Below are positions 8,964 to 55,900 of a stretch of DNA of 64,000 nt, in pieces. Source of the stretch: Accumulibacter sp. (GTDB lineage Bacteria > Pseudomonadota > Gammaproteobacteria > Burkholderiales > Rhodocyclaceae); the NCBI GenBank assembly GCA_024235695.1, contig JACKLX010000006.1, forward strand, positions 1-64,000, read 5' to 3'. The notes under the pieces are model-generated. The model was given only the letters and a program-made list of their open reading frames with translations. It searched no databases and had not been told where the DNA came from. The position numbers were made by a program, and so were the translations under genes. Numbering within the stretch: the stretch's first letter is position 1; every line of letters begins with the position of its first letter.

Positions 8964-9013
8964 CGCAGCATGGCGTGCGCCGCATGCCGCTCACCGATGA
9001 GGAGTCCCCGCCC

Positions 9014-47200: not shown

Positions 47201-47730
47201 TTCGTCCGCGGCCTGCCGGTTTCCGCTTGCCGATCGATCAGCTGCGTCGCCAGCCGGCGGCGAGCGACGACTGGCGGAAAGCCTTTGTCACCGATATGGC
47301 CAAGAAGCCGGACAATTCCGACAATCCGAACAATGACTTGCGGGTGACGCCCGGACCTTCGCTACAATCTCCAGCGGCACCTGCAGAGCGTCCGGAAGAC
47401 GCCAGCGAGAGCACGCGTGAAGGGGCGCAGGTCGAAACGCCGGCGGGTGCGCCGGAGGGTGCACAAGAGGGTACGGCAAACCGCAACCGCCAGGCGGCGG
47501 GAGACGGCCAGCCGGTGGCTGCGGCGAAAGACGATGCGCCAGCGGACATCGCCGAGGCATCGGCGGATGGCAAGGCCGATGCCACGCTGGACCAGTTGTT
47601 GCTGGTCCTGCCTCTGGCGCCGTTCCAGCCGGTATTTTTCAAGAGCATTCTAGGGAGAAGGACGTGGCAGACAAGAAGGTCGAAACCCCAGCGCAGACCG
47701 CCGGCGACGAGGGACAGCGCATCCGGATGA
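11215..47730 (+). CDS. Giant LEPR-XLL modular exoprotein B (12,171 residues)
   Basis: One uninterrupted frame; product well over 1 MDa. Residues 53-68 hold the LEPR-XLL motif (NFEALEPRILLDGAP) after a basic N-terminus. Then about twelve ~210-residue pre-peptidase-C-like units (71-3507) with three lamin-G-like inserts (417-616, 1574-1802, 2008-2242) and a legume-lectin-like domain (2659-2879); 17 CARDB domains (3522-5742); a conserved unnamed region (5746-6646); a propeller (6719-6959) and Big_5-like domain; putative-Ig repeats (7186-8052); an RHS-like segment (8243-8503); a dockerin-like element (8622-8678); a second, YVTN-like propeller (9319-9702); an alpha/beta-hydrolase-like domain with GHSRG (Ser9997); a metzincin-like domain (HELAHNLGLFDE from His10873); four 109-residue repeats; cadherin-like and PKD domains; and a Pro/Ala/Glu-rich tail with the motif shared with A. 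ATG 11215 is chosen over TTG 11197. Likely exported; only two cysteines seen. Confidence 0.9.
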   Translation: MDSKARPAVSPSTNRSAPRNALRTRRGLAWLGEFLAKAFRRPAVEAPAAAGHLNFEALEPRILLDGAPTIPVSQIDGSIDVAGETDRYGFTLNETVRVVFDSLTNNASMRWSLEGPRGAVVSDRGFNASDSYELGGNVAIDLAAGDYTLSVDGVADTTGAYSFRLIDIAQAQELTLGSTVNGQLDPANETDAYRFSVAAGQRFFIDRFSNTGDIYWRLLDPYGRTVVDRTHMNNDLGEVTLSVDGSYTLLIEGRAYTSGSANYSFNVALVDDPVPQPMALAALVAGRIAQAGQRDVYTFALASDTRVVFDSLTRDYNMLWSLTGPGGTVVADRRFEYSDSYELSGDNSILLRAGSYTLTVDGEGDRVGNYAFRLLDLAAAQPIAVNATVSGTLGDEGASAAQAHVSPGAPLSGAGANDGALAVHGVSRHVSVADAASLRPGQLTVEAWIYKDPALANWGGVLMKSSNSSWSDGYGLSNYTDGRIHFFVNSYSTNEVSADLADNTWTHVAGTYDGSTLKLYVNGVLTSSKAYTATINHSTQPLRIGAGAGGDYPWRGQIDEVRVWGVARSAQEIAANYQQGLQGNEAGLAGYWRMNEVAGSLFADSSPAANDGTLTNEPARASRLYSFSALAGERFFFDSQGLSGDNVSLRIFDANGRLVHGPQSLNSDVDVFTATDSGDYVLALEGRIYNTNSSSYQFKLQRVVDGSGPLALDSRIDGNLDHPGQRQAYSFTLAAPAQLLFDSLTYDDQVNWSLVGPRGSEVAGRNFVYSDAAEYSGKPLLNLADGTYTLTVDGNLDKTGAYAFRLLNLATASSVVAYDSDVSGTLSPGGMTRVYRFTASAGDQLEFDRIALSGGSPTWRLLDATGFQVFGPESFADRATTALRLGGTYYLLVEGRSWETGDIDYRFKLAFQGNAPVPALTGTAITVGATVAGTVAAVGEVDDYVFDLAGPARLYFDSFAPNNDGSFQWSLVGPRGVEIADRSTYYSESYEFGNGNPVVDVPLAGRYQIRIRAAGNATGNYSFRLLNLADGTMVTPGTPVTASLDPANETDVYRFTANAGDRVFFDRQTFSPANSNWVSWRLIDPYGRQVWGPANFYDDVDVGTIEFAGVYTLLIEGRIWSTSSVARFDYGFNIQPVVDDPANALTIGDTVNGNIAHAGQQDGYTFSLADQTLLYFDSLSNANVAWTLRGPDGYLLSRNLQNSDSYELGQSNPLLRLAAGDYTLTLDGVGDSSGDYSFRLVDVASEAVALIPGTAVSDSLSSARVTDFYRFDVVAGERYYFDRISYGDYYNTTYRLIDPQGKQVWGGYVWPEDQEMSAFALAGTYYLLVEGRVGNAAAANAYSFNMYRVVDISAGLTLGQTVSGSFSAPGQRASYRFTLTDARQLLFDGLSPNNANPDIYWTLTGPRGAEISNRRFYGSESHELGASSPLLALVAGDYTLTLDAPGDQTGNFSFRLLDVAAAATAFSSNSVVAGQLDPANETDVYTFNATAGTRYYIDRQNLSSGVGADRLTWRLFDPYGRQVFGPYNLNDVDIFTLGESGAYTLIVEGRIWDTQYSARIDYSFKLLEITDDVVDIVPGVSHGVDRFSADGQLGGALNLNGLRYAEVADSGELDLTGSLTLEAWFKVDAYAGTWQPLFYKGNGNSNQRTYTLWLNSAGYLHLSTGNNANYNINTAAGSVVTGQWHHVAVVLDRDSATGVMKIYLDGVEAASGALSKAAASSNGNPLLIGSSLENYPRMQGAVDEVRLWNSVRSAQQIADNKDHTLVGSESGLLMYLKADETSGTTLADGSGRGNSGLIVHPWASTPGVVAGRIDFGQQDYYRFTLADATRLYFDSLTDNNNIRWTLSGPRGTLVSDRPLQNSDSQNGLSVFDLVAGEYTLRVDGVGDTTGDYGFRLVDLAGAQTLALGTTVNSQLTPANRTDAYQFSANADDRLYFDVTATSGGVPFWRLLDPWGRTVWGPNYMPNDDVQLRTLPFTGVYTLLVEGRRDAGDGSSSYGLRVARVTDQTVAITPGVASGMTPNWLAGEHAGAIDLNGFQYLEVADSSSIDLTGSLTVEAWIKLDQFTNTWQPIFYKGDASSDWTRRTYAMWLNSDGSLHFGSDTRYTNTAAGVVQAGVWTHVAGTIDRATGSLRIYVNGDQLAARDNIGTTPASAYGKPLLLGGGLYQSTDSNLFAGALDEVRIWNTARSQAQIQATRDTPLSGSELGLVLYLRADEGSGETLGDLSGDGNPGQLRALADGIVRGRIEQAGQAVHHSFSLAAPALLYFDSLTNSSDMRWSLSGASGQVVANRSFSQSDSYDGSSFYNLAAGDYTLTVDPQGDTTGLFAFRLLDLADAEVLTPGTAVAGGLNPGRRTDAYRFDVGTADQRWFFDAISRSGADAYWRLLDPWGATVFGPSAVNNPDSNDLETTLPYVGTYTLLIEGRNYWGGSSSSYTVNVQPVNDVASAIALDSDVVGSIANAGQRQAYSFTLNSDQVVYFDSRTNSSAFSWSLSGPRGSVVAGRAFNRSDSADLAGSPVLELVAGDYTLVVDGTGDATGAFDFRLMDLSAARAIAVGADVSGSLQPGSTTQIFSFAASARDRLAFEMISESRNSAYWRLLDPYSGLIFGPRDFADTGAVTMPFSGTYYLLLEGRVSEANAVDFSFRIDDTALPNSGAHSSQDFDATGLPWAPASFSNSAPAVVAGGPSGDFLRLLPGSVTGYNTIGFNNAGVGVVPATVTVDFDFRIGKVSNQGDGIGFAWLNSDAWGNSGPAPQFGEEVNLAGSFGVGFDPVNNGEISDNHVSLHFDGSKYAEFNVSGFRLDSGDFHHARVVVTAVAGGSMVSVYLTANGGSEVAVVEDYFISGMQAYDGRMAFGARNGGWRADNDLDNIRVTVVAGSAEALPVLTLGTVPVSGTLSASGEVDRYRLPLAGDTRVYFDSLTDNGNLRWTLSGPRGTVVAGRSFTASDGYQGLSLIDLAAGDYLLSVFGSTGAYSFKLMDMDQAEVLTPDTDTSGTLSPGNETDIYRFDAAAGERFYFDRVSFSGGYYTDWRLIDPFGRPLWGPTHMYYDDVDLTTLPYSGTYYLLLEGRYHEGTASNYTINARKIDGAASTPITLGDRVDADLGKPGEVDSFSFEIAGSASKRVYFDVLTNTTRLNWTLSGPRGTVVSGRSFGATDAANGRSIMDLAPGSYRLIIDGSGDVTGAYAFRLLDLASATQIVPGTPLVDQTLTPGRATEVYWFDAAAGERFYFDRVSFSGGYYTDWQLLDPNGRTLWGPTHMYYDDVDVTTLPLSGRYTLLVEGRYHEDTPTSTYTINVQPVVDPVTPISLNSQIAGVIASVGQRGLHTFTLTEAKQVYVDVLTNNTNLSWSLSGPRGVEVSGRSFGASDGVHGLSLLDLLPGDYTLTIDGSGATTGAYALRLLDLAAAQLITPGTPVSGQLNPASATEIYRFNATAGDRFYFDRVSFSGAYYTEWRLLDPWGNTVWGPTHFYYNDVDVTTLEFDGLYTLLVEGRYHESGTSSYTLNVSPSPISQKVVLSGLGSVPGPDLTVENLALTPVGGGLAAGGQVLVSWDVANAGNLPANAPWKDRILVRNMDRGGELIVNLLVDYADLGAAAGQPLAAGASRARQVLVSLPPGNSGTGNLRFEVAADVTNAVAEPGAAELNNAATLDALAAATPYPDLQVGSVAVTPGSGWAAGSTVTVNWRVNNGGSVGVSDAWTDRVVVRNLATGAILLNAGSRYLPAVDGALAAGGFIDRSLSFSWPAGAVGSGRFEFLVTTDDDGEIFESNASDTAETNNSASLVVASAPDLLVEQLRLAAATAATAGDSITVFWDDRNEGLIATPASWHDRLIVRNLSTGETLLDVALPYNIALVGNGALAANASVTRSHDFQLPEGLRGTGQIEVEVRVDQNAAGQGALVEYTAAGGSGEGNNSARLTFTAAARPYADLLVSSFTAPPSGRGGETITLDWTVLNQGAAATSAQWSDRIVLSRDDVIGNADDLTLASVGHYGVLAPAASYQQSRQLILPERLDGTFRLAIVADALGEVSEPDSRADNTSTAAIQLSTPHADLQVEVVAAPASTRSGEATPVSWRVRNAGDRPTDVTQWKDSIYLSTDATLDAGDTLLAQILHAGGLAVGASYSGQSNVFLPFGLTGDYRILVHTDSGSQVFESVFDANNVTASLAPLQVLAPTLADLTVSQIVVPVQGAPGQTTTVSWTVVNAGNGAAHGSWSDRVYLSADGSLAGAQLLATVPHSGELAALASYTASTAIVVPDVADGDYRIVVSSDVTDTVFEGSQESNNTTVSAATLRVVHPDLAPLSVAAPASALSSETIVVSWRIANAGSSEALGAWSDRLYLSRDASLGADDTLLGELAHAGPLAAGSSYDAQLPVGLPLAASGDYFLLVVSDALGEIREVGGENNNVGSTPFTAALAPYANLVVSAVTAEASVPYAPAPEVVVGDPAQITVSWTVSNDGTGVGQTTQWTDALLVSSDSIVGNGDDRVVATYAHAGALAVGDSYSRSETFLLPAYFQGRYHFFVRSDAGDEVFENGLEVDNAAEAARIFDVMRIPNADLVVSQASVPATASSGRGINVSWQVSNLGIGPTDIPGWNDTVVLTADAAGTQVVAVLGAFTHLGVLAAGDSYSRTQEVTIPDGLSGSYYVRVQSSGPFEFVYTGNNSRVAGPVDVVLSDSPDLQVTDIVTPATASEGDTIDVRWTVTNNGLARASGAWTDVVSMRKVGQPNDPGIFLGSFTYDAGGLEAGISYTRTERFRLPPRTEGVYQVVVLTNASRQVYEYGNAAANNSAADDQVLQVALLPRSDLQVANVVAPARASAGATVSLRFSIINQGTVPTTTPRWSDRVYLSLDNKLSGDDLLIGSYDNGAALNPGEQYATDSGSLQIPIRFRGDVFLIVQADGSGSVDEYPNDANNIAAVPLFVEPYPLADLVAGSVVAPAQAVEGASIEVRYTVANRGSGTTAGASWTDTIWLSRDKTRPNASGNSAILLGTLQHQGALAVGSSYDVTTQVALPAHVASGTYYITVWSDSYDVILEDTLASNLNPDDINELDNNNYKARAIDVIGGFAPPPPDLRITALAASPLASTDAPLSVTWTVANTGAGEAAGSWNDVFWLSDKPTLDAPGARQWYLGAVAHDGGAAPGASYTQSTSFALNPAAAGQYLLAYTDYNPFKPKPYDVAEGDEENNTRVQDTGVVAQPADLQVVTIAAPSVNYSGEKTTVSWTVKNFGGAVWQGSRYWLDSVYLSPDPVFLPERATSLGTFVHSNAAGLAAGASYTESAEVTLPRGIGGNFYLYVITDANRYDPRYPAGEAGAGDNAYYRDVYYPTSVYEGVGGQDNNRGIGSIPVTYREPDLKVTSLLVPSAGGQSGSTVTVNYTVTNIGNRDTRESSWWDRLFLSRDDSLDTFDLQVAEARHYGVLTVGDSYTGTATVSLPEGIAGAFSLLAFTDSEADSRLAWWNSNIVPEYRGVGIDANSDTVPEFRGEGNNITVAALPVAAAPLADLQVTVVSAPNHITVGNDFTVTYTVSNLGGAGTPAAQARWDDLIYLSRDPLLDLDSDRYLLTVEHTGGLAQGDSYTVSKTLRAPLDISGAYYVFVVTDPARGSGRGKVFEGGFERNNATPNSPPSIFELPPPADIQVEAISFAGAGAAGDTIHVEWTVANHSINPTASGWTDAVYLSDDNLWDINDRLLGKIAHSGVLAENDSYTASLDALVPPIKGGQYRLIVRPDIYNEVFEGPYRSAGEANNFATSANALSIAVDELHLGVALSTTLSTAQSRVYKLTVGQGETLKLSLTAADHDAANEIFIRYGDVPDGFNYDATYENPLQANQTAVIPFTRPGDYYVLIRGHSEPKANAQVKLLAEVVPFAITAVSVDQGGDSRWVTIDVRGARFADNAILKLVRPDVAEYEPVKWDVIDSTWIRATFDFRGAPLGLYDLKVINPDGKQAVVAYRFLIERALEPDVTIGLGGPRVLAAGETGTYGVALQSLTNVDTPYVRFTFGVPEMGRNDFVYDLPFLKYYNNLRGQPESGGEDVPWASLDSATNTNGQILSSGYAYDVIAGGYVGATFNVQTYPLLKALSTLNWDALRVGLYEMYPDLEPIQALAGGPQSMITVLPEFWDLWLLAGSEDGLPDKCVIPFIPYRFNIVGAATAMTRDEFIADQTAEALKLRAAILVDSDLDAKIADPRTDDTSLAEKRAAIALRVLAADATTWSQAYLAALEQVGILRPVDEAPPIRQDIKVMSLMSTLATGILIGPAGDQIRTTADLADFFARIKQWYGDEPGTRAAIDHYEYRESDCLSGDIPVPALPTFDDYNLDLSHPTYFQTFNIFVPYVGFNRDGASAATIALPDYASVAASNELTALDFSRLYEQAIGDGQLASIAGPQGYGVDQFLPVGQALPYTVKFENPSAAATSVTEIRVVSELDPALDPSTFRLGDIKLADLTVHVPTGRALFQGDFDLRNSKGFILRVSAGIDPGTHTASWVFQAIDPDTGELLQDATRGLLLPNAADGRGVGQLGYTAQARDGLVSGTSVKARAVVRFNAIAPQETQQLVQTLDTGAPVTTLTAKPVQAAGADYEVRWSAVDEAGGSGVAHVTVYVAKDGGDFRIWKRQTTDSFDIYTGEVGHRYEFLALASDLAGNRERAPGGVQAPDDGSGANLGGLPSFGQTSQDLPPPPAPVLPPTNPLFVAAQQQIPAATPLARLPEFSEVMRPFTAQSYATDFVESHAAIGPLAMIEMPDGSTIVSGGPNRGWLYRIPHDGGRALQPFAELDEPIFDLALDEHGQLWATTGGGALLRLDADSGEVQARFGTGITQALAVKPSTGEIYVSSGDGIEIFDPTSGSFRHFSDLRVDDLAFAADETLWGTSWPARGDVVSFDKRGRATVRVRLDGEVDSLAFGRAGTRLAGLLFVSSNSTRGEIGSALTMVDLTTLHSVEIARGGSRGEAVVATSDGRVLLGQSHQVDVISPIVAPQVIATNPPDMAVVLLPLSELTISFDQDMFVGVVSDSGSVLNPLNYQVVRQNGGLATITGVSYEAATRTVTLAVSDLQADLYDLRVLGSVRSSAGMALGSAFISSFVAAQDFSSVVRLDFDRVRSDRGSGIVSYDVTITNEADYDLLLPASLIIDPARYFQGRPLGGVAPQGAGSLWYIDLSGKLPNGKLQAGASLATFSVSITNGAAQQIGIGHGIYAVPYPNQRPAFTSTPQTSADAGQAYSYQATAVDPDGRTVAYLLLDGPSGLQLDSGSGVLSWLPTSLSPASASVLLRAYDSRGGFDSQAFVIEVAGANRPPVVSELPAEIEGREGQSLLVGLSAQDPDEDFLQYFANNLPPGAVFDPLLKALVWTPDYLSAGTYNDVELVVSDGKTSVSRSFTLLIKPDNAPPEVKPVAERTIREGDSLRLQLQASDVDGQKLRFFANVLPVGAYLDPNTGVFEWNAGFTQAGDYLLKLGASDGAKSTETELRVHVLNVNAAPRFDELGSWISFEGQPLSFRAFAFDPDNPGFIPQDRQSSGTLTVQEGADASVSYVIGGLPAGASFDPVTAMFTWTPDFSQAGDYSVRFFATDDGDGGAPLTSEIVVPISIRNANRAPDIAEILPQGVQRDSVFELPVNASDADGNPLKLAASGLPAFASFVDNGDGSGKFVFAPHSGDRGDYEIALTATDDGDGGGALLAQSFTRRFILSALSASEAPLLAPIGDKLALVGQRLSFSIDARDLDQDSLSFAMINAPAGMTITPQPTYGRALVEWTPNAASLGQTFDVRFEVSDNGNNGATAPNKASQVVRVKVRDSNTAPLLAPVGDLTLVEGQPFSLQLAAFDADGDALTYAVENLPAGARFDPVSGLLSWTPNLFSAGQYPDVRFSVSDGSGASSESVRLTVQNSNQAPIVVALLPQSGREGALVQFQLSVGDIDGDPVLFSALTPLPAGSRFDARSGEFRWTPTYEQAGDYSFSFSARDPQGASSQTTVSLAIANVNRAPQLTVSNHVALLGRPLAFRIVAQDADQNSQLSYSASGLPEGATLDATTGLLQWTPGAGQAGDYLVMAQVSDGLASTTLPLVIRAALTPPAASVIIENTPSFPVIPGQQVLVHVIAESFGAIAGLRLYADGVEVPLDQDGRALLTTTTVGKIALRAEATDVDGFVGSSVSAIRVRDPQDRSAPTPSFASQLAFARIGETTALVGSTGDDNVDSWTLEIARYGDQHYSLLASGNAEVDAAAFMQLDPSSLANGFYSLRLQVVDLAGRRGEASIAIEVDSATKQPQLLRSETDFVLTVAGHDLPFARSYDSLARSIPGSFGEGWRLAFRDVDLQTDVSLTGREAAGVLGTFADGQRVFVTLPDGQRTAFNFAPQKHSIAGQTWYLPAFVAANDSGWSLEAPATPLQRAGSSYFDLVTGKGYNPANATATDYVLVAPDGTRYLIGDGEVREVAFSDGVRLLVSDSGIVASTGERVQFSLNHDGFIERVVASDGRQFLYDYDVQGRLVAVRDLEAARSLRYGYQEGALGRLAMVAGAAGGQLFDYGATAVAEQAITADLGSAITYLATPVSGHLAAGEKASFAFTLRQSELASTASASVYLGLIVDGSGGLLPQIPVLSGISPLASSVQGNRAFALYKLDRAGLTLIEVAAASAGSYQLSLFVAGDANRDGSADGNDAVLIAAASGLRSGDAGYTLALDADANGVIDSGDLQLLMQNTGFAPNRAPVVVAGAVRTHEDLDVSASVASFVTDPEGDRSFFSIVGASHGTARLSGDGRSVIFAPEMGFVGTADFTIRADDGFGQTIQTIAVTISNAALTRIDFVERAWRLDLGEGRQIRLVGDFADQSGVALPASYVNLISTNAASGTIVADGRISAVGKGSGVIVAERGELRAATSFTVGTPTETVAAYVFGMGIDVYPGAVALLENGGLRQIVTSLAGQVDLTPASSGTRYFAGDDRVLSVSADGLITGKAAGSSTVTVINGGGEFVISASVEAPISGPAVLGSLGGIVEGADGSLVAVAAGALTGNTQVSIAPLTPAALPLAMPESMAMAGAFRLEIGDGKLATPVQLAIPTSGLAAGSKVVFMRYAEVPTPEGTMLPLWLQEETGVVGADGVARTSSPPYAGVAISGVYIAGVASDATFGQVRGRTYGTFPTGISDGGSSFATLSSLGGGSAIGAAFSLTSGFIMTALFGSRELQIISVPAQGLPQRTTLGVEIDPGKVSDYSIQVVNPYSPSTSPASEPFIAEARLVFHATASGDLAPFVEIKGDRFTYDNPPAPASAKDGSQISDLFVVFVAPDGRTYEVHPDAASSPTEVLVPVPQSLAIGTAKVYVRRPQVLSNNGAWNQLVGKESNRVQLSYDARYVFGGLSGNELLVIDSQSKDLAARIPLGGSFPAPRSVAISADNTRAYAALRYESSVAVVDTVALQQVDADGDLANGVSRVELLPGARPFWIVAGKGGKKAYVSDEVAGRIYVLDIDPSSGSYNKLVRTLDVAPAPSGLRGMAINANGTRLFVAAPEKVLFGASSGGDGRVFVIDVDEGSATYGDVLEVLAAGAEPYGVSATNDANVMLYTNRLSDSKGVVIVKGDVGNYTQTTVGLLLGSVNDYFDVNNAISVVLSKDSDYAFVSGFNVFIQDNPSHDPNYDPFHPAGGNIGIIRDPLGAAPTLVAATRPVPMSWPDNLVLSPDGDTLYAAYRGQRVVMGFDVQAMISAVNNPAFAGQLDRKPIDDLDPSINVRSNFKIIVPGSRFVDPVFGVPAGASNGPIGVGGQANGLIAQGGASLELLAPGTLTSELTPTFSWLVKGFPNAKSRLFVSTYRGSDGLFPTDLGTPDLNADRIFSSALLDASSIDAQGSAVFIKALAANLKLTAGQQYFWGVEVVSPAGTVVARDWRVVKTEAFRDASKPFSSVTLLTHGFQLSPTAPANVADSLSAFIEMAENIARAGGEGVAALYQKTTGRWLVFYNGATSATGVDLETVLGSPTMAGRPVVLVSDWYNESDFPTNGFSEAAADTIYSALARLNFNVGNDKLFDSPIHLIGHSRGTVVNSEIAQRFGIYKPAVRLSMTSLDVHDFNQPSLDIPVGEYIQLFGSGVSALGATALGTAIQLWGMLPTNAIIPTGNFLDPDVQRWSNIDFAEHYYQILASNTALPVGAGIVSTPNGRFVPNFDVSINLNGRAGFTTDDGLATATALSSGSLRPGGPHSRVWRWYGATTDLSVIEFNKGGEPVFRRLADKDAIEFQGVTVPWYNAQSFALGFGPSEGIGTGWAFSPQGGVPYAGAPSNNRVPVTFDNSETMNASGLPVPSVFNGDFEEGALNRSWLLQYSAGGLATNLTGDLPGWSFHGGGFEKTYAPGDRLITLANGTHAAMLDNDNSWIRHNRMVVPDWAEYLSFDVRVVNAAVGETLRVEGYVPDTGAWIDLGSVALDSQGNNFGNRLLAVPVDFRGAERMLKFTLSGGGSANAEIWLDHVQFMRGLIADSTTDPNDKGVFFSDTATGPTTGFNSQWVELTNRFPDPFTVTVTTDPNDFLVVVDGAFEKLLNDNQAHAPLYDNFVVNPGGTLHLDLKARFSDDFVKTYTDADLPIEKTALYFTITLGNGSVRDEVVDLFYLPDFADGDASDGVWTMIDTLDGKTRTLAFDNAAQVDVKPLSNPTGQFSVDETGSIAQGIKYQSVYSSPIDDFAEFQIEEGGRNLGKITVKARAVEKQTVGVSLATLRTMVQAIRTEYDQWVADPTTPVHDANGFATGNYGIFASLFSPVITDAEWADVLSGFHTVFGKDPTALGPVYAASIYLPSIQQNEFSYAENGLNPIVMINRPWVNATDNDARSFAGLDFAYTSFENKLTEAGAGAGSFGGKVLRDDISIPAKRFLLSQVVNPVRTGAMAGGSAMTLVVDGILRAYLNVGDTRHDVGKSFGWVVGHELAHNLGLFDEYIYNPFQSVPRNGGDNFMSTANTVTVANRQREALHLAMDNPDTTVSLAGTNALAAWYLDLNALDASNRPGRGVQALSPGAGDGDPEADPLTALLAFIGLKGAATSGVTSQPLLLNGDMHSGIVNGGFDVADTTAIDYGWTAVGQAGVVNGQGVVNEDPRLASRLVQTFVVPDQAQLLRFELLGADFVSNEEGPADAFEVALLDLFGNAVAGTIPVGDSDALFNLQAGGKVFAAPSVSATGLVDRNGGTLPVGQPVTVSIDLSGIASGTVLTLYFDLLGFSGAASRLRIDNVGIITVGDSNNVPPVASSSAITASEEGAAVALGLSAPTDVDSPLLSITVNSLPILGEIQYANGSAVSINDTLSSAQLLGLKYLPPAEYNGRDAVGRFTYSVSDGVSTVSGETAIALTAVNDAPVASSSAIVASEEGAAVTLALSAPSDVDSAVLNIVVTALPALGEVQYADGSALRVNDVLTSAQLIALKYLAPTEYNGSDPVGRFTYRVSDGSRTATGETTITLIPVNDAPVASGSAITADEGGAAVALGLSAPTDVDSPLLTIVVSGLPALGAVQYADGSAVRVNDALSSAQLLALKYLPPGAYNSNDVVGSFSYRVSDGSRSAIGETAITVIPANYAPVASSSAIVAVEEAPAVLLGLSAPIDVDSPSLTIAVSGLPTIGEVQYADGSAVRLGDRPSSAQLLALKYLAPTEYNGSDPVGRFSYTVSDGQRTAIGETTITVTPVNDPPLALADSASVDVHDSVLIDVLANDSDAENQVLTLVSAGGAARGSVVIENGKLRYTPLPNSLGADRFSYLVSDSGGATATGTVDVLVTGNHAPTLAALVDLSVSEGGRLTVNAVGSDVDPGDILSYSLTVAPAGASIDPNSGTIVWQALDGSGSYDFSVRVVDRAGASASGNFTANVLNVAPTLSIAGLSSTYADEVYALTLSSQDPGDDTISNWRVDWGDGQVIDYAGNPMQLEHRYTGVFGPLQIRATATDEDGSYLVDPLPLTVLPRSPQVVGGSGTGGASGGDVVGSGGAGVDRVDRVDALLLAVNGLLGSNQLATRPPVAASNGDGRVGIGDAVGSGTRVNAVEVPAFAVEPARSLFEASPGDLPQIDFRPRPAGFRLPIDQLRRQPAASDDWRKAFVTDMAKKPDNSDNPNNDLRVTPGPSLQSPAAPAERPEDASESTREGAQVETPAGAPEGAQEGTANRNRQAAGDGQPVAAAKDDAPADIAEASADGKADATLDQLLLVLPLAPFQPVFFKSILGRRTWQTRRSKPQRRPPATRDSASG
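11425..21735 (+). repeat. Pre-peptidase-C-like coding repeats of giant gene B
   Basis: About twelve units of roughly 610-650 bp, diverged in DNA. Each has a first half (AGQRxxYxFTL, YFDSLTNN, WSLxGPRGxxV, AAGDYTLTVDGxGDxTGxYxFRLLDLA) and a second half (NETDxYRFxAxAGxRFYFDR, WRLLDPYGRxVWGP, DVDVTTL, YTLLVEGR). Lamin-G-like domains interrupt or precede units at about 12463-13060, 15935-16620 and 17236-17940, and a lectin-like domain at about 19190-19850. Confidence 0.8.
21780..28440 (+). repeat. CARDB coding repeats of giant gene B (17 copies)
   Basis: Seventeen copies of a roughly 120-130 residue CARDB domain, each opening with a PDLxVxxVxxP phrase, then VSWTVxNxG, WxDxVYLS and GALAxGxSYxxxxxxxLP. 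CARDB is an Ig-like fold found in cell-adhesion-related bacterial and archaeal proteins. Copies are diverged, not recent duplicates. Confidence 0.85.
41188..41220 (+). other. Alpha/beta-hydrolase nucleophile elbow inside giant gene B
   Basis: IHLIGHSRGTVV has the G-x-S-x-G elbow, with Ser9997 as candidate nucleophile. Upstream VTLLTHGF (about 40807) fits the strand before an oxyanion loop and VLVSDWYNE (about 41050) follows. The domain spans roughly 40800-41500. Asp and His partners were not assigned. Confidence 0.6.
43816..43935 (+). other. Metzincin-like zinc-protease motif inside giant gene B
   Basis: VVGHELAHNLGLFDEY encodes HExxHxxGxxD with His10873, Glu10874, His10877, Gly10880 and Asp10883. 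NFMST 19 residues after Asp10883 supplies a Met-turn candidate (Met10902). The pattern fits zinc metalloproteases with an Asp third ligand. Activity is untested. Confidence 0.65.
44776..46083 (+). repeat. Four 327-bp coding repeats near the 3' end of giant gene B
   Basis: Starts at 44776, 45103, 45430 and 45757, spaced exactly 327 bp (109 codons). Each unit reads PVASSSAIxAxEEGAAVxL, then DVDSPLLxI, LGxVQYADGSAV, SAQLLALKYLPPxEYN and GRFxYxVSDG, a cadherin/Ig-like pattern. Confidence 0.9.
47188..47352 (+). other. C-terminal-region motif of protein B shared with A
   Basis: PQIDF, GFRLP, WRKAFV (W codon at 47272) and PNNDLRVTP (47326-47352) match the order and nearly the spacing of the tail of protein A (W to PN: 18 residues here, 16 in A). 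In B about 125 further residues, rich in Ala, Pro, Glu and Gly, follow before the stop. Confidence 0.55.
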
Positions 47731-47960
47731 ACACGGCGTCGGTCAAGAGCACCTACTGCAACATGGTCAACGTGACGACGACGCGCGAGGAAGTGGTGAT
47801 GAACTTCGGCGTCAACGAGAGCTGGGACCGGACCGCCTCGGAGTACGACGTTCGTCTGGAGCACCGCATCGTGATGAGTCCCTTCGCCGCCAAGCGCCTG
47901 GCAACGATGCTCGGCAAGCTGGTCGATGAGTACGAAGGGCGCTACGGCGAGCTGAAGTAA
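47664..47960 (+). CDS. DUF3467 family protein
   Basis: A 98-residue soluble protein. The block from MNTASVKSTYCNMVNVTTTR through EEVVMNFGVNESWD and VRLEHRIVMSPFAAKRLATM to the end is the DUF3467 pattern (Thr-Arg-Glu-Glu-Val, Ser-Pro-Phe-Ala-Ala-Lys-Arg-Leu). The GTG at 47664 follows AGGGAGAAGG; an ATG at 47727 is possible but lacks such a site. The start lies inside the end of giant gene B, overlapping it by 67 bp in another frame, which suggests translational coupling. The family has no established biochemical function; lacking signal or membrane segments, it should be cytoplasmic. Its place between a giant exoprotein and two export-type genes suggests a service role in that system, perhaps chaperone-like, but nothing in the sequence proves it. 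Confidence 0.85.
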   Translation: MADKKVETPAQTAGDEGQRIRMNTASVKSTYCNMVNVTTTREEVVMNFGVNESWDRTASEYDVRLEHRIVMSPFAAKRLATMLGKLVDEYEGRYGELK

Positions 47961-48091
47961 GGCGGGGCGCCCGGGGCATGGCGCCGCCGCGGTGGCCCGT
48001 GCTGGCGAGGTGACCGTTGCACGGTGCATCAGAGCGGGCAGCGTTGCCGTCCCCGTCTTTTCCATCACCATCGAGGTACTGAGGCCAGCCG

Positions 48092-49957
48092 GTGTCTTCC
48101 AGCTCGTATTCCTCCAGCCCGCAGCAGGCTGGCTTGTCGTCGGGCGTTGGCGGGCCGTCCGGTCGGGCCCATGATGATGCGCTGTGGGGAGCTTTCGCGT
48201 CGGCGCAGACCGCGGCCGAGTTCTGCCGCAGCTGGCTGTCGTTGCAGTGCGTGCAGGTGGTCGACGTGCACTCGGCGATGCTGCTGCTCGAGCAGGACAG
48301 CGGCACCTTCGTGCCGGCAGCTGTCTGGCCATCCGCACAGACCGACGTGACCTATCTGGCGCCGGCCGCGCAGCAATGCCTCAGCGAACGGCGCGGCATG
48401 CTGCTGCCGGGCCAGCCGGGGGCGCCGGTGATCGTCGCCTATCCGGTCGAGCTTGACGGGCGGGTGCACGGAGCGGTCGTGCTGGACGTCGCCGAACGCA
48501 GCGAGGAGGCCTTGCAGGCGGTGCTCAGGCAGTTGCACTGGGGCATCGGCTGGATCGAGACGCTGTTCCTGCGTCGCCAGGGTCTCGACGACGCGCAGAC
48601 GCTGGAACGTGCGCGCGCCGCGCTCGACATCCAGGCGGTGGCCGCCGAGCACGCACGTCTCGAGCCACTGGCGATGGCGCTGGTCAACGACCTGGCCAGC
48701 CGCTTCGGCTGTGACCGGGTGTCGCTCGGCATCGACCGTCAGGGGCGGGCGCGGTTGCTGGCGATCTCGCATTCGGCGTTCTTCGAGAAGAAGAGCCAGT
48801 TCGTGACGGCGCTCGAGAACGCCATGGACGAAGCGCTCGACCAGCGGCGCAGCGTTGCTTTCCCGATCATCGACGAAGAGGCGAACGGCATTGCCATCGC
48901 CCATCGTGATTTTGCCGCCGCGCGGGCGGTCTGCTCGGTTGTCCTGAGCAGCCGTGGCGTCGGTGTCGGTGTGCTGACCTTCGAGCGCGACGACGGCAGG
49001 TCGTTCGACGCCGAGGAGGTCAGGACCTTCGAGGCGGTGAGCACGCTGCTCGGCCCGGTGCTTGACGATCGCATCGAGCGCCATCGCTGGTTTGCCGGTC
49101 GGCTGGTCGACCAGCTGCGCGCCTGGTGGGCGCATTTCAAGGATTCCCGCCGGCCGGCGTTTCGCGTCGGCGTGGTGCTGGCGCTGTTGCTGGTGCTCGG
49201 CGTTTTCAGCCTCGACGGCGAGTACCGGGTGAGCGCGCGGGCGGTGGTCGAAGGCGAGGTGCAGCGCGCCGCGGTGGCGCCATTCGACGGATTCCTGCGC
49301 GAGGCGCCGGTGCGCGCCGGCTTTGTCGTCAAGCAGGGACAGGTCCTGGCGACGCTTGATGACCGCGACCTGCTGGTCGAGCGGCAGCGCTGGCTGTCCG
49401 AACGCGAGCAGCATCAGGGGCGTTATCGCGATGCGCTGGCCAAGCATGAACGAGCCAACGCCAATGTCTCGCTGGCGCAGATGCAGGAAGCCGAATCGCA
49501 GCTGGCGCTGGTCGACGAGAAGCTGGCACGCGCCAGCATCGTCGCCCCGTTCGACGGTGTCGTCGTTTCCGGCGATCTGAGCCAGTTGCTCGGCTCACCG
49601 GTCGAGCAGGGCAAGCTGCTCTTCGAACTGGCGCCGCTCGACGCCTATCGGGTGATCCTCAAGGTGGACGATCGCGATATCGGCGATGTGCGCGTCGGCC
49701 AGTCGGGGAGCCTGGTGCTGACCGGCCTGACCGGCGAGGTGCTCGACTTCGAGGTTCGCAACCTGTCGATGGCCGAGCCAGAAGACGGCCGCAACGTTTT
49801 CCGGGTCGAGGCGCAGCTGGCGCGCAGCGATCTCAAGCTGCGGCCAGGCATGGAAGGCGTTGGCAAGATCAAGGTTGGCGAACAGACCTACGCCTGGATC
49901 TGGACGCATCGATTGACCGACTGGCTGCGCATGCAGGCCTGGACCTGGCTGCCGTAG
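48092..49957 (+). CDS. GAF-domain HlyD-type membrane-fusion (adaptor) protein
   Basis: A 621-residue protein. Residues 30-165 look GAF-like and 185-330 form a clearer GAF domain (LASRFGCDRVSLGI, SVVLSSRGVGVGVLTFE, VSTLLGPVLDDR). One membrane helix follows (about 356-375, FRVGVVLALLLVLGVFSL). The remainder is HlyD-like: a lipoyl half (VAPFDGFLREAPVRAGFVVKQ, GQVLATLDD), a helical hairpin (about 427-480), the second half (ASIVAPFDGVVVSGDLSQLL) and a beta-barrel part (VDDRDIGDVRVGQSG). This predicts cytoplasmic GAF sensors joined to a periplasmic adaptor, an unusual fusion. GTG 48092 is preceded by GAGG (48081-48084) with a 7-base spacer. The next gene starts 12 bases after the stop. By family, HlyD adaptors link inner-membrane pumps to TolC-type channels; no such partners are encoded here. 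Confidence 0.85.
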   Translation: MSSSSYSSSPQQAGLSSGVGGPSGRAHDDALWGAFASAQTAAEFCRSWLSLQCVQVVDVHSAMLLLEQDSGTFVPAAVWPSAQTDVTYLAPAAQQCLSERRGMLLPGQPGAPVIVAYPVELDGRVHGAVVLDVAERSEEALQAVLRQLHWGIGWIETLFLRRQGLDDAQTLERARAALDIQAVAAEHARLEPLAMALVNDLASRFGCDRVSLGIDRQGRARLLAISHSAFFEKKSQFVTALENAMDEALDQRRSVAFPIIDEEANGIAIAHRDFAAARAVCSVVLSSRGVGVGVLTFERDDGRSFDAEEVRTFEAVSTLLGPVLDDRIERHRWFAGRLVDQLRAWWAHFKDSRRPAFRVGVVLALLLVLGVFSLDGEYRVSARAVVEGEVQRAAVAPFDGFLREAPVRAGFVVKQGQVLATLDDRDLLVERQRWLSEREQHQGRYRDALAKHERANANVSLAQMQEAESQLALVDEKLARASIVAPFDGVVVSGDLSQLLGSPVEQGKLLFELAPLDAYRVILKVDDRDIGDVRVGQSGSLVLTGLTGEVLDFEVRNLSMAEPEDGRNVFRVEAQLARSDLKLRPGMEGVGKIKVGEQTYAWIWTHRLTDWLRMQAWTWLP

Positions 49958-49969
49958 GCGATTTGCGGC

Positions 49970-52117
49970 ATGGCCGGCCCTTTTCTCAGCGCGTCGTGGT
50001 ACCGGGTCGCCGAACTCCGGCCCGAGTTGCGGGCGCACGCCCGCATCCATCGCCAGCGCTTTCGCGGTCAACCGTGGTACGTCTTGAGCGACAGCGCTTC
50101 CGGCAAGCTCCACCGCTTCAGTCCGGCGGCCTACCAGATCATCCGCTTGATGGACGGCAAGCGGACGATCGACGCGATCTGGACCGAGGTGGCGGCCGCC
50201 GCCGGGGCGCAGGCGCCGACCCAGGATGAGGTGATCCGGCTGCTGTCACAACTGCACGCCGGCGACCTGCTGCAGGCGGACCTGCCTCCCGACGTGGACG
50301 AACTCGCCGAACGCAGCGGCAAGCAGCGACGCCAGCGGCTGCTGCAGCGCTTCGTCAATCCCCTGTCTATCCGCCTGCCGCTGTGGGATCCGGACGCTTT
50401 CCTGAACCGGACCTGGCCACTGGTGCGCCACCTGTTCTCGCCGCTTGGCGTGTTTTTCTGGTTGCTCGCCGTCGTGCCGGCGATCGTCCTCGCCGGCGTG
50501 CACTGGCGCGAACTGACCGCCAATCTCAGCGACCAGGTACTCTCCGCGCACAATCTGCTGCTGCTCTGGCTGGTCTATCCGCTGATCAAGGCGATGCACG
50601 AACTGGGTCATGCCTACGCGGTGAAGTCGGGCGACGGCGAAGTGCACGAAATGGGCATCATGCTGCTCGTCCTGGCGCCCATTCCCTACGTCGACGCGAC
50701 CGCCGCCGGCGCCTTTCGCAGCAAGCTCAGGCGCGCCATGGTTGGCGCCGCCGGGATGCTGGTCGAGCTCTTTCTGGCGGCAATCGCGATGGCGGTGTGG
50801 GTGCTGGTCGAGCCGGGTCTGGTGCGCTCGATCGCCTTCAACGTGCTGTTCGTCGCCGGCGCGTCAACGCTGCTGTTCAACGGCAATCCGCTGTTGCGCT
50901 ACGACGGTTACTATATTCTCGGCGACCTTATCGAGATCGCCAACCTCGGCAACCGCTCGAACCAGTACTGGCAGTGGCTGGCCAAGCGCTACCTGTTTGG
51001 CGCCACCGCGGTCGAGCGGCCGGCGGCGACCGCCGGCGAGCGCCGCTGGTTCATCTTCTATGGGGCCGCGTCCTTCGTCTACCGGACGCTGGTGATGATC
51101 GTCATCACCCTGTTCGTTGCCGGCGAGTTCTTTGTCGTCGGTGTCGTGCTGGCGATCTGGGGAGCGGTGACGATGTTCGTGCTGCCGATTGCCAAGGGCT
51201 TTTCCTACGTGCTGTCTAGTCCCGAGCTGCAGCGCACGCGCCGCCGCGCCGAGCTGGTTACTTTCGGCTCGCTGGCGGCTTTCCTGCTGTTCATCGTGGC
51301 GGTGCCGATGCCGCTGCGCACGCACGCCGAGGGCGTCGTGTGGGTGCCCGAGAACGCCGAGGTACGCGCCGGCGCGAGCGGATTCGTCGAACGTCTGTGG
51401 GTTGCTCCCGAGTCGTCGGTCGGTGTCGACGAGCTCTTGCTGTCGACCGCCGAGCCGGCCGTCACGGCGAGCGTCGAGCAGGCGAGGGCGCGGGTCCGGC
51501 AGTTCGAGGTCCAGTACGCGACGCTGATGTTCGAGGAGCGCGCGCGGGCGGCAGCGATCCAGGAAGACCTGTTGCGGGAAAAGGTCGCGCTGGCGCGCTA
51601 CGAGGAAAAGCTCGACGCGCTGCTGGTGGTCGCCGCGGTTCCCGGCGTGCTCAAGCTGGCGCGGCCGCAGGACCTGCCGGGCCGCTTCGTGAAAAAGGGC
51701 GAACTGCTGGGCTACATCGTCTCCGGACCGCCGCGGCTGGTGCGCGTGGTGGTCGGCCAGGACGATATCGCGCTGGTTCGCCAGAGCCTGGAGGCGGTCG
51801 ACGTCAAGATTGCCGACCGCTTGCACCGGACCTATCCGGCCCGCCTGATCCGCGAGGTGCCCGGCGCGCACGAGCGGCTGCCGAGCAAGGCGCTGGCGGT
51901 TCAGGGTGGCGGAAAGCAAGCCACCGACCCGCGCGACCCGGAGGGACTGAAGGCCCTGCAGCGGGTGTTCCAGTTCGACCTTGAACTGCCCGAGGAAGTC
52001 GGCCCGGTACACATCGGGACGCGCGTCTTCGTGCGCTTTCAGCACCGCTCGGAGCCGCTTGCGCAGCAGTGGGGAAGGCGTTTGCGACAACTCTTCCTAT
52101 CGCGCTTCGACGTCTAG
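49970..52117 (+). CDS. PqqD-like / M50 metallopeptidase / HlyD-like fusion protein
   Basis: A 715-residue protein. Residues about 30-105 resemble PqqD-like winged-helix domains (GQPWYVLSDSASGKLHRFSP, IIRLMDGKRTIDAIW), which in peptide-maturation systems bind leader peptides. The polytopic middle (about 150-445) holds the M50 site HELGH (His210, Glu211, His214) and, far downstream, NGNPLLRYDGYY with Asp312 as candidate third zinc ligand. The part after residue 445 is HlyD-like: EGVVWVPENAEVRAGASGFV, a coiled coil (500-550), then a second beta half. The predicted protein is thus an inner-membrane protease with a periplasmic adaptor arm and a cytoplasmic recognition domain. The ATG at 49970 has no strong ribosome binding site and lies 12 bases after the GAF-HlyD stop, so coupling is likely. 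Possible role: processing or export of the LEPR-XLL giants (inference). Confidence 0.85.
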   Translation: MAGPFLSASWYRVAELRPELRAHARIHRQRFRGQPWYVLSDSASGKLHRFSPAAYQIIRLMDGKRTIDAIWTEVAAAAGAQAPTQDEVIRLLSQLHAGDLLQADLPPDVDELAERSGKQRRQRLLQRFVNPLSIRLPLWDPDAFLNRTWPLVRHLFSPLGVFFWLLAVVPAIVLAGVHWRELTANLSDQVLSAHNLLLLWLVYPLIKAMHELGHAYAVKSGDGEVHEMGIMLLVLAPIPYVDATAAGAFRSKLRRAMVGAAGMLVELFLAAIAMAVWVLVEPGLVRSIAFNVLFVAGASTLLFNGNPLLRYDGYYILGDLIEIANLGNRSNQYWQWLAKRYLFGATAVERPAATAGERRWFIFYGAASFVYRTLVMIVITLFVAGEFFVVGVVLAIWGAVTMFVLPIAKGFSYVLSSPELQRTRRRAELVTFGSLAAFLLFIVAVPMPLRTHAEGVVWVPENAEVRAGASGFVERLWVAPESSVGVDELLLSTAEPAVTASVEQARARVRQFEVQYATLMFEERARAAAIQEDLLREKVALARYEEKLDALLVVAAVPGVLKLARPQDLPGRFVKKGELLGYIVSGPPRLVRVVVGQDDIALVRQSLEAVDVKIADRLHRTYPARLIREVPGAHERLPSKALAVQGGGKQATDPRDPEGLKALQRVFQFDLELPEEVGPVHIGTRVFVRFQHRSEPLAQQWGRRLRQLFLSRFDV

Positions 52118-52623: not shown

Positions 52624-52665
52624 AACACTCCCGTCGAGAGATGGGGCAAGAAAGCCGAGAGTGTT
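52624..52665 (+). other. Inverted repeat AACACTC/GAGTGTT upstream of gene C
   Basis: AACACTC (52624-52630) and GAGTGTT (52659-52665) are perfect 7-bp complements with a 28-base loop, followed by the palindrome CCCGCGGG. There is no T run, so it is not an obvious terminator; it could be an operator or an mRNA structure. Confidence 0.25.
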
Positions 52666-52728
52666 CCCGCGGGGAAACAAATCGGGCCGCCATGCTGTTC
52701 GTGAGCATCGTCGCATAGGGAGGGACGC

Positions 52729-52902: not shown

Positions 52903-52904
52903 CC

Positions 52905-55900
52905 ATGAGCAAGCGCGCGCGCAGCCGCTCTCCGCTCCAGTGCGGTTTCGCGGCGAATCCGATCGTCGCGGCCCTGCGCAGGATCATCTCGGCCAAAGTC
53001 TTCTTCTTGAGCACGGGGGCCAGGCGCCGGGGCGACGTCGCTGCGTCGCCGACGCTGCGTTTCGAAGGCCTGGAGCCCCGCTTGCTGCTTTCCGCGGATC
53101 TGTCTCCCTTTCCGAGTCAACTGTCACCGTCCGATTCGTCGGCGCACCTGGCGCTCCTGGCGGACACCGGTCCTCGGATCGACCTCGGCGGCGGTGCAAG
53201 TTCGCTGGTGTCGATGACGGTTGCCGACGTCGAACCGGTCGCACTGTCTTCCGATGAAATCTTCCCCGAGACGACTCGCGTCCCGCCAAAGGCTCCGGAG
53301 CGTGATTGGCGTCTGACAGTTGCCGGTCACGCCGCATCGCACGTGATCGTTTTTGTCGACGGCGGTCTTCGTGACTACCAGACGCTGGTCGCCGCAATTG
53401 CCGCGGGTGAGGAGGGATCGGTCGCACTCGGTTCGCCGAACACCGAGGTGTTCGTCATCGACCCGGCACACAACGGCCTGCAGCAAATCACTGACGCGCT
53501 GTACGGTAAGACCGGCATCTCCGCGATCCACATCTTTTCGCACGGGCTCGATGGCACGCTGGAGTTCGGCGCCGATCGCATCGACGCCGCAGGCCTTGAT
53601 GCCCATTCCGCGCAACTGGCGACATGGAGTAGTGCGCTGACTCCAGACGGCGACATTATGCTGTACGGGTGCGACGTAGGTTTCGGGCAACAAGGCGACC
53701 GCTTTCTCGCCCGCATGGCTGAGCTCACCGGCGCCGACGTCGCGGCCTCGATCGATGCAAGCGGCAACCCGCAGTTGGGTGGCAATTGGCAACTGGAAAA
53801 GAGCACCGGTGCGATCGAAGCAGGGCTGCCGGCGAGCGAGTTCTCGCTCAACGGCTTCCAATCCCTCCTCGGCAGCCGGACATGGGACGGGGGAGGTGAT
53901 GGCGTTTCGTGGAGCGATCGTTTCAACTGGAGCGGTGATCTGACGCCCGGGGCGAACGACGATGTCGTCATTGACGCTGCGCTTGGTGATCCGGCCATCA
54001 GTATCTCGGCAGTAGCGGGGTCGGTGCAGGTGAAGAGCCTGACCAGCAGTCGGCCGATCAGCGTTCTCTCGGGGGCGACAGTGCAGGCCTCATCAACCAT
54101 CGTGCTGAACCGAAGCATGACTCTCGCGGGCGGCACGATCGAGGGCGGCACAGTGAGCGTCGCAGGTGGCGCGAAGCTGGTGGCGACCAACGCCGGCGGC
54201 ACGCTGAAGGACGTGACGCTGCGCGGCGACGCGGCGCAGAGCGAGCCGACGGTGCTCGAACTGAGCGGTGGTTACGGCGTCAATGTCGGCGTCAGTGGCG
54301 ACCTGACGCTGGACAACGCGACGATCGCGCTGCAGAACTACGGCCAGCTCTACTTCAGCAGCGTCGCGGCGACGCTGGGCGGAAACGGCACGGTGCTGTT
54401 CGGCGACAACAACAGTTACAACAGCGTGCGGGAAGTCGCCAGCGGCGGCGAGTTGACCATCGGTTCGGGAGTCACGGTCAAGGGGGCGGGCGGGACGATC
54501 GGCTACAACGCCGGCTGGGGCGGCCCGGCGAACGTCGCGGTGCGCAACCTGGGGACCATTGGTCCCGATCGGGCGGGGACCATCGTGCTGAGCGGCGCCA
54601 GCTTCGCCAACCAGGGAACGCTGCAGGCCAGCGGTGGCGGTACGCTGAATGTGCAGCCGACGAGCTGGAGCAATGCTGCCGGCGCGCAGATCACGGCCAG
54701 CGCCAGTACGCTGACTCTGGCAGGGTCGTACGCGAACAGCGGCACGATCAGCGCCAGCAACTCGACGGTCAACCTCGGAGGCAGCCTGACGCTGGGCCAG
54801 CTGGGAACCTTCGACCGCAGCGGCGGCACGGTAAATCTGACCGGGACGCTCAACAACAGCGGCAACACGCTGGCGCTGGACGCCGGCAGCGGTTCGTGGA
54901 ACCTCGCGGGCGGCACGATCGAGGGCGGCACGGTGAGCGTCGCGGGTGGCGCGAAGCTGGTGGCGACCAACGCCGGCGGCACGCTGAAGGACGTGACGCT
55001 GCACGGCGACGCGGCGCAGAGCGAGCCGACGGTGCTCGAACTGAGCGGTGGTTACGGCGTCAATGTCGGCGTCAGTGGCGACCTGACGCTGGACAACGCG
55101 ACGATCGCGCTGCAGAACTACGGCCAGCTCTACTTCAGCAGCGTCGCGGCGACGCTGGGCGGAAACGGCACGGTGCTGTTCGGCGACAACAACAGCTACA
55201 ACAGCGTGCGGGAAGTCGCCAGCGGCGGCGAGTTGACCATCGGTTCGGGAGTCACGGTCAAGGGGGCGGGCGGGACGATCGGCTACAACGCCGGCTGGGG
55301 CGGCCCGGCGAACGTCGCGGTGCGCAACCTGGGGACCATTGGTCCCGATCGGGCGGGGACCATCGTGCTGAGCGGCGCCAGCTTCGCCAACCAGGGAACG
55401 CTGCAGGCCAGCGGTGGCGGTACGCTCAATCTCCAGGCCACGGCGTGGAGCAACAGCGGACTGATCAGCGAGAGCAACGCGACGCTCAATCTCGGCAGCC
55501 GCTTCAGCACGGCTGACCTGGGCAACTACAGCCGCAGCGGCGGGACAATCAATCTGACCGGGACGCTCAACAACAGCGGCAACACGCTGGCGCTGGACGC
55601 CGGCAGCGGTTCGTGGAACCTCGCGGGCGGCACGATCGAGGGCGGCACGGTGAGCGTCGCGGGTGGCGCGAAGCTGGTGGCGACCAACGCCGGCGGCACG
55701 CTGAAGGACGTGACGCTGCGCGGCGACGCGGCGCAGAGCGAGCCGACGGTGCTCGAACTGAGCGGTGGTTACGGCGTCAATGTCGGCGTCAGTGGCGACC
55801 TGACGCTGGACAACGCGACGATCGCGCTGCAGAACTACGGCCAGCTCTACTTCAGCAGCGTCGCGGCGACGCTGGGCGGAAACGGCACGGTGCTGTTCGG

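Follow-up and report, generated by a model that had tools for sequence, protein, structure and literature searches.

The described systems closest to the locus analyzed here are the tripartite type I secretion systems (HlyB-HlyD-TolC), to which Lap and Sii belong; the accessory Sec pathway, in which the Gram-positive SecA2 is linked to very large surface proteins; and the PqqD-M50 proteases of pathways for ribosomally synthesized and post-translationally modified peptides (RiPPs; daptide, NF041824, and YydH/LiaK, NF058609). The locus lies in a window of 64,000 nucleotides (nt), i.e., the whole stretch of Accumulibacter sp. DNA that was analyzed, which forms positions 1-64000 of a source contig (C6) of 224,536 nt. 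Here, a DUF3467 protein, a GAF-HlyD adaptor, and a PqqD-M50-HlyD fusion (M50-HlyD, where the family is meant) are encoded between two giant LEPR-XLL genes, whose products rank among the largest proteins of bacteria. This co-directional arrangement, first described in a reading of the DNA made without database searches (the sequence-only reading), was confirmed by open reading frames (ORFs), Pfam, and NCBIfam: the three ORFs are intact, on the same strand, and tightly spaced between giant 1 and giant 2. Judged from sequence, the three genes on balance probably encode the membrane and recognition components of an export module that is dedicated to LEPR-XLL giants and has no ATP-binding cassette (ABC) exporter. 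The features concerned are as follows, in window coordinates.

47664..47960, + strand: DUF3467 protein, 98 amino acids (aa); PF11950, 70.6 bits (cut-off 25); overlaps the 3' end of giant 1
48092..49957, + strand: GAF-HlyD adaptor, 621 aa; Pfam GAF and HlyD_3/HlyD_D23; one membrane helix
49970..52117, + strand: PqqD-M50-HlyD fusion, 715 aa; PqqD-like domain, membrane metallopeptidase, HlyD
50078..50272, + strand: PqqD-like (leader-binding type) domain, residues 37-101; PF05402, 27.7 bits (cut-off 23.4)
50597..50611, + strand: M50 zinc motif HELGH; H210, E211, and H214 invariant in alignments A1 and A3
50879..50908, + strand: second M50 motif NGNPLLRYDG; N304, N306, P307, and D312 invariant in alignments A1 and A3
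11197..47730, + strand: giant 1, LEPR-XLL protein of 12,177 aa, candidate substrate; ORF; NF012209, 25.0 bits
11377..11415, + strand: LEPR-XLL stretch of giant 1, FEALEPRILLDGA; NF012209
52836..64000 (runs past the window end), + strand: start of giant 2, LEPR-XLL and DUF4347; ORF; NF012209
53061..53099, + strand: LEPR-XLL stretch of giant 2, FEGLEPRLLLSAD; NF012209, 28.1 bits

The module resembles type I systems in its HlyD/MexA-type adaptors, in its giant, repeat-rich candidate substrates, and, at some loci, in the presence of TolC. It differs from them in having a SecA-like protein instead of a recurrent ABC ATPase beside it, in the fusion of its adaptors to PqqD-M50 and GAF parts, and in the N-terminal position of the proposed signal. 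As in accessory Sec systems, module genomes have an extra SecA in addition to the housekeeping one, linked to very large proteins, but the module SecA is short, lacks the wing/scaffold, and belongs to a Gram-negative envelope with HlyD and TolC parts. The order of a PqqD-like domain followed by an HExxH membrane protease is shared with the RiPP proteases (149.2 bits with NF041824 and 33.8 bits with NF058609); however, both cut-offs were missed, the window protein has a C-terminal HlyD part, and its neighbors are proteins of thousands of residues. Campylobacter SapC is part of a surface-layer secretion operon and lies beside type I (ABC) genes; SapC is also found in the window and in 18 of 75 module loci, but stands here with the SecA-like protein and M50-HlyD.

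Both window giants exceed the cut-off of the LEPR-XLL model NF012209 (28.1 and 25.0 bits; the model has 24 positions and a cut-off of 17 bits). In the passages available from two papers, LEPR-XLL was named for a ~8000-aa Vibrio protein (PMC10868602) and appears as a transcript name (PMC9611531), but no export machine is assigned to it. The terms PqqD, M50, GAF, and metalloprotease were not found in the available text of the review PMC8277102, nor was a description of this system found in the open-access literature searched; to that extent, the earlier statement that no described system is known with this combination stands. As a candidate export system, the module is apparently undescribed.

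Co-occurrence with LEPR-XLL giants

Three sets of genomes were used: 200 genomes of the order, 299 of the phylum, and those of the best 80 of 591 confirmed loci from a genome scan with an M50-HlyD profile (the named loci). An M50-HlyD match was called strong at E <1e-100 in the order (single-protein query) or <1e-150 in the phylum (profile query), both thresholds being fixed after the scores were known; the phylum counts given here and below are among the matches listed. The module is associated with LEPR-XLL giants. In the order, LEPR-XLL was found in 21 of 25 strong-module genomes versus 6 of 175 others (Fisher p 2e-19), and in the phylum in 33 of 37 versus 17 of 262 (p 5e-27); because genome relatedness was ignored, these p-values exaggerate the strength of the association, yet both samples show it. 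When any M50-HlyD match was counted, the figures became 26/42 versus 1/158 (the one being a 23-aa frame) and 48/108 versus 2/191 (including one 64-aa frame). LEPR-XLL genomes without a strong module mostly had a weaker M50-HlyD match (five of six in the order and 15 of 17 in the phylum), and genomes with only such weaker matches contained LEPR-XLL in 5/17 and 15/71 cases, respectively. Among 78 genomes of named loci (L161 and L183 lie outside this set), 65 had LEPR-XLL (41/49 plus 24/29), whereas it was found in none of 14 control genomes in each search. Cultured relatives that carry a module together with one LEPR match include Massilia sp. Leaf139 and Azotobacter beijerinckii DSM 378.

The two families are also adjacent. 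Fifty-nine of the 60 order matches to M50-HlyD were used, the remnant in the window's own genome being excluded; 21 of them share a contig with an LEPR start, always on the same strand; in 20 of these pairs no more than 7.5 kb separates the two genes, and in the remaining one 182 kb does. Of 48 strong matches among those listed for the phylum, excluding a few LEPR rows on other contigs, 22 share a contig with an LEPR start; 20 pairs lie within 8 kb, 19 being on the same strand, and the remaining two are ~11 kb apart on opposite strands. The lack of co-occurrence that, by the sequence-only reading, would have refuted its proposal was not seen: the linkage between LEPR-XLL and the module genes is very strong, and it includes adjacency in two samples. 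The genome from which the window derives (84% complete) has three more LEPR-XLL starts, on contigs C4, C18, and C24, and one intact M50-HlyD was found in it; with several LEPR starts and one intact M50-HlyD, one module may therefore serve several giants.

The conserved gene row and its SecA-like ATPase

The named loci, selected by likeness to M50-HlyD and in many cases metagenome bins, carry record titles from the alpha-, beta-, and gammaproteobacteria, Desulfobacterota, Nitrospirota, Omnitrophota, and Rokubacteria. Neighbor counts refer to loci with enough flanking sequence (assessable loci), and neighbor clustering to 75 of the 80, without the five closest Accumulibacter loci, and to ORFs of at least 80 aa. 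GAF-HlyD lies no more than 1.5 kb upstream of M50-HlyD in all 76 assessable loci, a SecA-like protein no more than 1.8 kb downstream in 73 of 76, and a third HlyD protein within 6 kb in 45 of 59. A large repeat-type frame cluster was found in 47 of 75 loci and, by tblastn, DUF3467 in 20 of the 69 with at least 3 kb of upstream sequence. The cluster with a SapC representative (18/75) is upstream of GAF-HlyD in 10 loci, between M50-HlyD and the SecA-like gene in four, and farther downstream in four; DUF3467 or SapC is proposed to be accessory. The two nearly exclude each other in module loci, occurring together only in L172. Thirty-six order loci with 32-55% identity to the query gave a similar row (35 with GAF-HlyD and 30 with the SecA-like gene); four of the six without the latter stop at a contig edge.

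A TolC cluster lies near the module in 8/75 named loci, in 4/36 order loci, and in G067; none was seen beside the module of the window, and neither an ABC nor an outer-membrane part was seen among the window genes examined. An ABC-ATPase cluster was found in the flanks of only 7/75 named loci, on either strand and with no fixed position, and no ABC protein was found among the recurrent clusters inspected in the flanks of the 36 order loci. SecY2 or Asp proteins were not recognized among the recurrent neighbor clusters, although no search was aimed at these families. Thus, of the export and processing module first suggested, the linkage to LEPR-XLL giants and a conserved operon held up, whereas the ABC exporter expected with it did not: the ATPase beside the module is a shortened SecA-like protein of a clade of its own.

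The SecA-like protein has a DEAD motor (PF07517), a preprotein-binding domain (PF01043), and a second P-loop (PF21090), with Walker A and DEAD residues that are invariant or nearly so in the alignment. No match was found in it to the SecA_SW wing/scaffold region with the two-helix finger, and it aligns to residues ~16-608 of a 781-residue SecA2. In a tree of 29 of 30 loci (L264 was excluded as it had no match to the Walker pattern; L287, with a stop in its match, forms a long branch), 17 short SecAs were split from 12 housekeeping SecAs by a 100/100 branch, SecA2 proteins not being in the tree. After the RQGDxG sequence, 73-81 residues remain in 13 of the 17 short forms (the pattern missed four), versus 320-356 in the 12 housekeeping proteins. 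Housekeeping SecA was found in all 20 genomes searched, and the short form in 13 of the 14 picked for the module and in none of the six picked without a strong module. The missing C-terminal region, with its two-helix finger, is the part of SecA that inserts into SecY. With it gone, it is doubtful that the protein acts on SecY in the canonical way, and it could instead work with the adaptors in a new pairing.

At the source locus, the SecA-like and third HlyD genes lie 33 kb downstream, beyond the window. Behind giant 2 come a second DUF3467 gene (C6:84472-84765, 92% identical to the first), a 160-aa remnant that starts like GAF-HlyD and ends like M50-HlyD (C6:84472-85382 together with the second DUF3467), a SecA-like ATPase of ~670 aa (frame to C6:87384), and the third HlyD gene (C6:87388-88293), the product of which starts like a signal peptide. 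The remnant is probably a decayed duplicate. Accumulibacter relatives keep the same genes in one row, the M50-HlyD stretch overlapping the start of the SecA-like gene in 5/5 loci (the nucleotides of two of these, and of the remnant, were inspected directly), and nucleotide matches between the two copies are 71-87%; because the first of these facts implies it and the second fits, we infer that the operon was split here by a second giant gene together with a partial duplication, as well as the order of these events. The giant 2 frame stops at C6:81236 and another frame runs from 81230 to 84538, indicating a frameshift, an assembly error, or two genes.

More distant M50-HlyD proteins (24-31% identity) at 22 loci stand in another conserved row, comprising, in this order, a large repeat-type protein (22/22), TolC (14), HlyD (15), a GAF-like HlyD (19), and M50-HlyD (22); SecA was not found in the rows of these 22 loci. 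By profile comparison, the M50-HlyD of this second type is homologous to that of the first over nearly its full length, including the PqqD-like region, and the GAF-like HlyD over the second GAF and HlyD parts. Some of the giants of this type also carry LEPR-XLL, which lies on the same contig in three genomes (G093, G120, and G180). This homology, together with LEPR-XLL in both types, indicates that the common core is the LEPR giant, GAF-HlyD, and PqqD-M50-HlyD, and the genes singled out by the sequence-only reading are those that the two operon types share.

Domains of the module proteins and candidate signals

GAF-HlyD has a Pfam GAF domain at residues 190-321 (28.4 bits, cut-off 22.4) and an HlyD_3 match of 69.2 bits (cut-off 22.2). 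Its AlphaFold model has a predicted local distance difference test (pLDDT) score of 88.0, Foldseek matches to it were MacA/MexA-type adaptors, and a second GAF-like unit appears, from our reading of the model, to precede the Pfam domain. PqqD-M50-HlyD falls below two Pfam cut-offs (Peptidase_M50, 15.2 versus 27.2; HlyD_3, 15.8 versus 22.2) and matches the PqqD/M50 model NF041824 over residues 18-405 with 149.2 bits, missing the cut-off of 300; a homologue of the second type passes Peptidase_M50 (37.2 versus 27.2). The AlphaFold model of PqqD-M50-HlyD shows the adaptor fold of the HlyD part clearly, and the M50 motifs lie in membrane helices of that model. The HExxH and NxNPxxxxD residues are invariant (alignments A1 and A3); one M50-HlyD alignment comprised 62 hand-picked loci of the 80 plus P0003 (L162, with a stop in frame, L142, and L176 were excluded), and another comprised 39 of the 80 plus the window protein. 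A profile search with the PqqD-like domain matched PqqD (PDB 3g2b, E 0.0077), and, as we read the model, its strands and helices follow an order that would fit a PqqD-type winged helix. PqqD-type domains bind leader peptides.

The consensus of 89 LEPR regions is [F/L]E[A/P/T]LEPR[L/V/I]L[L/M/F]S[A/G]D, the E and R of LEPR being forced by the search. In 46 regions, the 30 positions before LEPR contained a mean of 7.3 basic versus 2.5 acidic residues. A 12-residue hydropathy of at least 1.9 within positions -60 to +25 was found in 5/89 LEPR regions versus 49/57 N-termini of the third HlyD; a Sec-like hydrophobic core is missing in 84 of the 89. DUF4347 follows LEPR in giant 2, which may truly start at the in-frame ATG at 52905, but is not general (9/82 by a rough motif). 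The planctomycete extracellular motif PF07595 is weakly similar to one LEPR stretch, that of giant 2 (53055-53117; 11.4 bits, E 0.29), but its cut-off of 25.5 was missed; the LEPR-XLL and planctomycete PF07595 N-terminal signals may be related. The pattern [WYLF]xx[PLIMV], which we widened ourselves from the class W/Y/LxxP/L/I given for RiPP recognition elements (RREs) in the available part of PMC12710340, has its last residue on the first L of LEPR in 75/89 regions and is treated as a lead only.

A second candidate signal is C-terminal. The motif W..DFV...NPN..LR[VI] was found near the end of 13 of 1207 frames of at least 450 aa and nowhere else in the 939,941 residues of these frames, but since the pattern was written after examples had been viewed, it is likewise only a lead. 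The carriers are the upstream giant of the window, the tail of giant 2, and 11 large frames in other loci; several of them end just upstream of the module. The motif may act as a further signal, for sorting or anchoring. The window features that bear on it, and the gene between the upstream giant and giant 1, are as follows.

47272..47346, + strand: C-terminal motif of giant 1, WRKAFVTD...NPNNDLRV; W..DFV...NPN..LR[VI] type, looser pattern needed
4230..8231, + strand: C-terminal part of the upstream giant; cohesin-like, with tandem-95 repeats; the C-terminal motif recurs at 8109-8177
8975..9769, + strand: SapC-family protein, 264 aa, between the upstream giant and giant 1; PF07277, 237.7 bits

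Directly behind the upstream giant, a small protein (8233-8859) has a weak PEP-CTERM end (E 0.04). By eye, giant 1 contains metallopeptidase-like (GHELAHN), hydrolase-like (GHSRG), and RHS-like stretches.

A candidate export route and its alternatives

Three adaptors, a motor-type ATPase, TolC in some loci, and no Sec-like signals make export the simplest reading. Giants without a classical signal peptide would be marked at the N-terminus by a basic stretch with [F/L]E-x-LEPR-x-LL-SAD behind it. The PqqD-like domain would then bind this leader, much as RiPP leaders are bound by RREs, and the M50 part would cleave it off at the inner membrane. The short SecA-like protein, with its nucleotide- and preprotein-binding domains and no wing/two-helix finger, would drive the unfolded chain. 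M50-HlyD, GAF-HlyD, and the third HlyD would form the periplasmic adaptor, with the GAF part as a cytosolic sensor or gate, and the chain would exit via a TolC-type channel that is operon-encoded in some species. We infer all steps after the marking of the giants, as well as the direction of transport and any participation of SecYEG. Recognition of LEPR by the PqqD-like domain is plausible by analogy, because domains of this type bind leaders. It is also made plausible by the resemblance of F/L-E-x-L to the W/Y/LxxP/L/I class, as described in the part of PMC12710340 available. The M50 part is a possible leader trimmer, a role proposed solely because its zinc site is intact.

Several observations weigh against this scheme. 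The named loci were chosen for similarity to the query, and their conservation counts therefore come from a biased sample; an LEPR start was found in the examined flank of just 11 of the 80, and TolC is nearby only in a minority of loci. No LEPR match was obtained in 13/78 named-locus, 4/25 order, and 4/37 phylum module genomes (matches listed); the four from the order are in 310-580 contigs, and one of the 13 from the named loci (G258, locus L182) has an LEPR-like start that the model missed. Genomes with only weaker M50-HlyD matches likewise had no LEPR match in 12/17 (order) and 56/71 (phylum, matches listed) cases, so that members of the wider M50-HlyD family either have partners of another kind or go with LEPR starts that escape the 24-position model. 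Gene order deviates at L070, and in G067 GAF-HlyD stands last. The SecA-like gene is absent behind M50-HlyD in L136, L147, and L186 (the 3/76 named loci) and in two order loci with sufficient flanking sequence, L054 and L055; one module genome (G457) has no short SecA anywhere, and the second operon type has none in its row. The SecA-like protein is thus not required for every LEPR giant, and because it lacks the part that inserts into SecY, its role as a motor is a guess.

The main competitor is that export of the giants falls to the ordinary SecYEG or to a type I ABC exporter whose genes lie elsewhere, and that the module would only mature and anchor them, with M50 trimming the LEPR end and the SecA-like protein being a cytosolic unfoldase or chaperone. 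Such an arrangement would fit the housekeeping SecA in all 20 genomes searched, the missing C-terminal third of the SecA-like protein, and the second operon type without SecA nearby. However, 84/89 LEPR regions have no Sec-like hydrophobic core, no ABC gene was seen to recur at a fixed place near the module (7/75 loci, scattered), and an operon with three proteins of adaptor type, at some loci with TolC as well, favors a conduit of its own; we regard this competitor as unlikely. That the two families are merely neighbors by chance, or hitch-hike together in large, repeat-rich genomes in which both are common, is so improbable as to be negligible: module genomes are indeed often large, and both families could be commoner there, but the pairs are adjacent in 20/21 (order) and 20/22 (phylum, matches listed) cases, nearly always on the same strand.

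Two further alternatives are both very improbable. A RiPP-like pathway, in which a small peptide is matured by PqqD-M50, with the giants as neighbors or targets, would account for the best curated M50 match being the daptide metalloprotease NF041824 (149 bits) and for a cluster with a radical S-adenosylmethionine (SAM) representative in 4/75 loci. However, the NF041824 cut-off of 300 was missed, radical SAM is rare and variable in position, and DUF3467 is the only small recurrent cluster among ORFs of at least 80 aa in 75 loci. The radical SAM cluster is near L165 (6754-7701), L172 (16729-17739), L147, and L187; the L165 member, the one that was domain-scanned, lies between two DUF3467 copies. 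Radical SAM is a possible modification step in some lineages. Slightly less probable still is regulated intramembrane proteolysis, with GAF-HlyD and M50-HlyD sensing the giant and M50 freeing a regulator of adhesin production. The GAF domain, the apparent second GAF-like unit, and a cluster with a PAS/GGDEF/EAL representative in 8/75 loci would suit signaling, but no anti-sigma factor or membrane-bound regulator was recognized among clusters present in at least 4/75 loci, and signaling would not need a SecA-like ATPase or a secreted third HlyD.

Returning to the export module, a bolder proposal, which we hold tentatively and with rather less than even confidence, is that it represents a new Gram-negative export class. 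In it, PqqD-M50-HlyD would read and remove the LEPR leader, the short SecA would replace the ABC protein as the motor, perhaps free of SecY, and a TolC-type exit would serve chains of as many as 14,000 residues or more, in several phyla and in types with and without SecA. LEPR-XLL has so far been only a name in the available passages of the papers found (PMC10868602 and PMC9611531). The module is directly testable in cultured relatives. If the proposal is true, bacterial giants of 8,000-14,000 residues, single chains that show no Sec signal, would at one stroke have a signal assigned and be given candidates for both motor and protease, and SecA would have been reused outside its canonical form.

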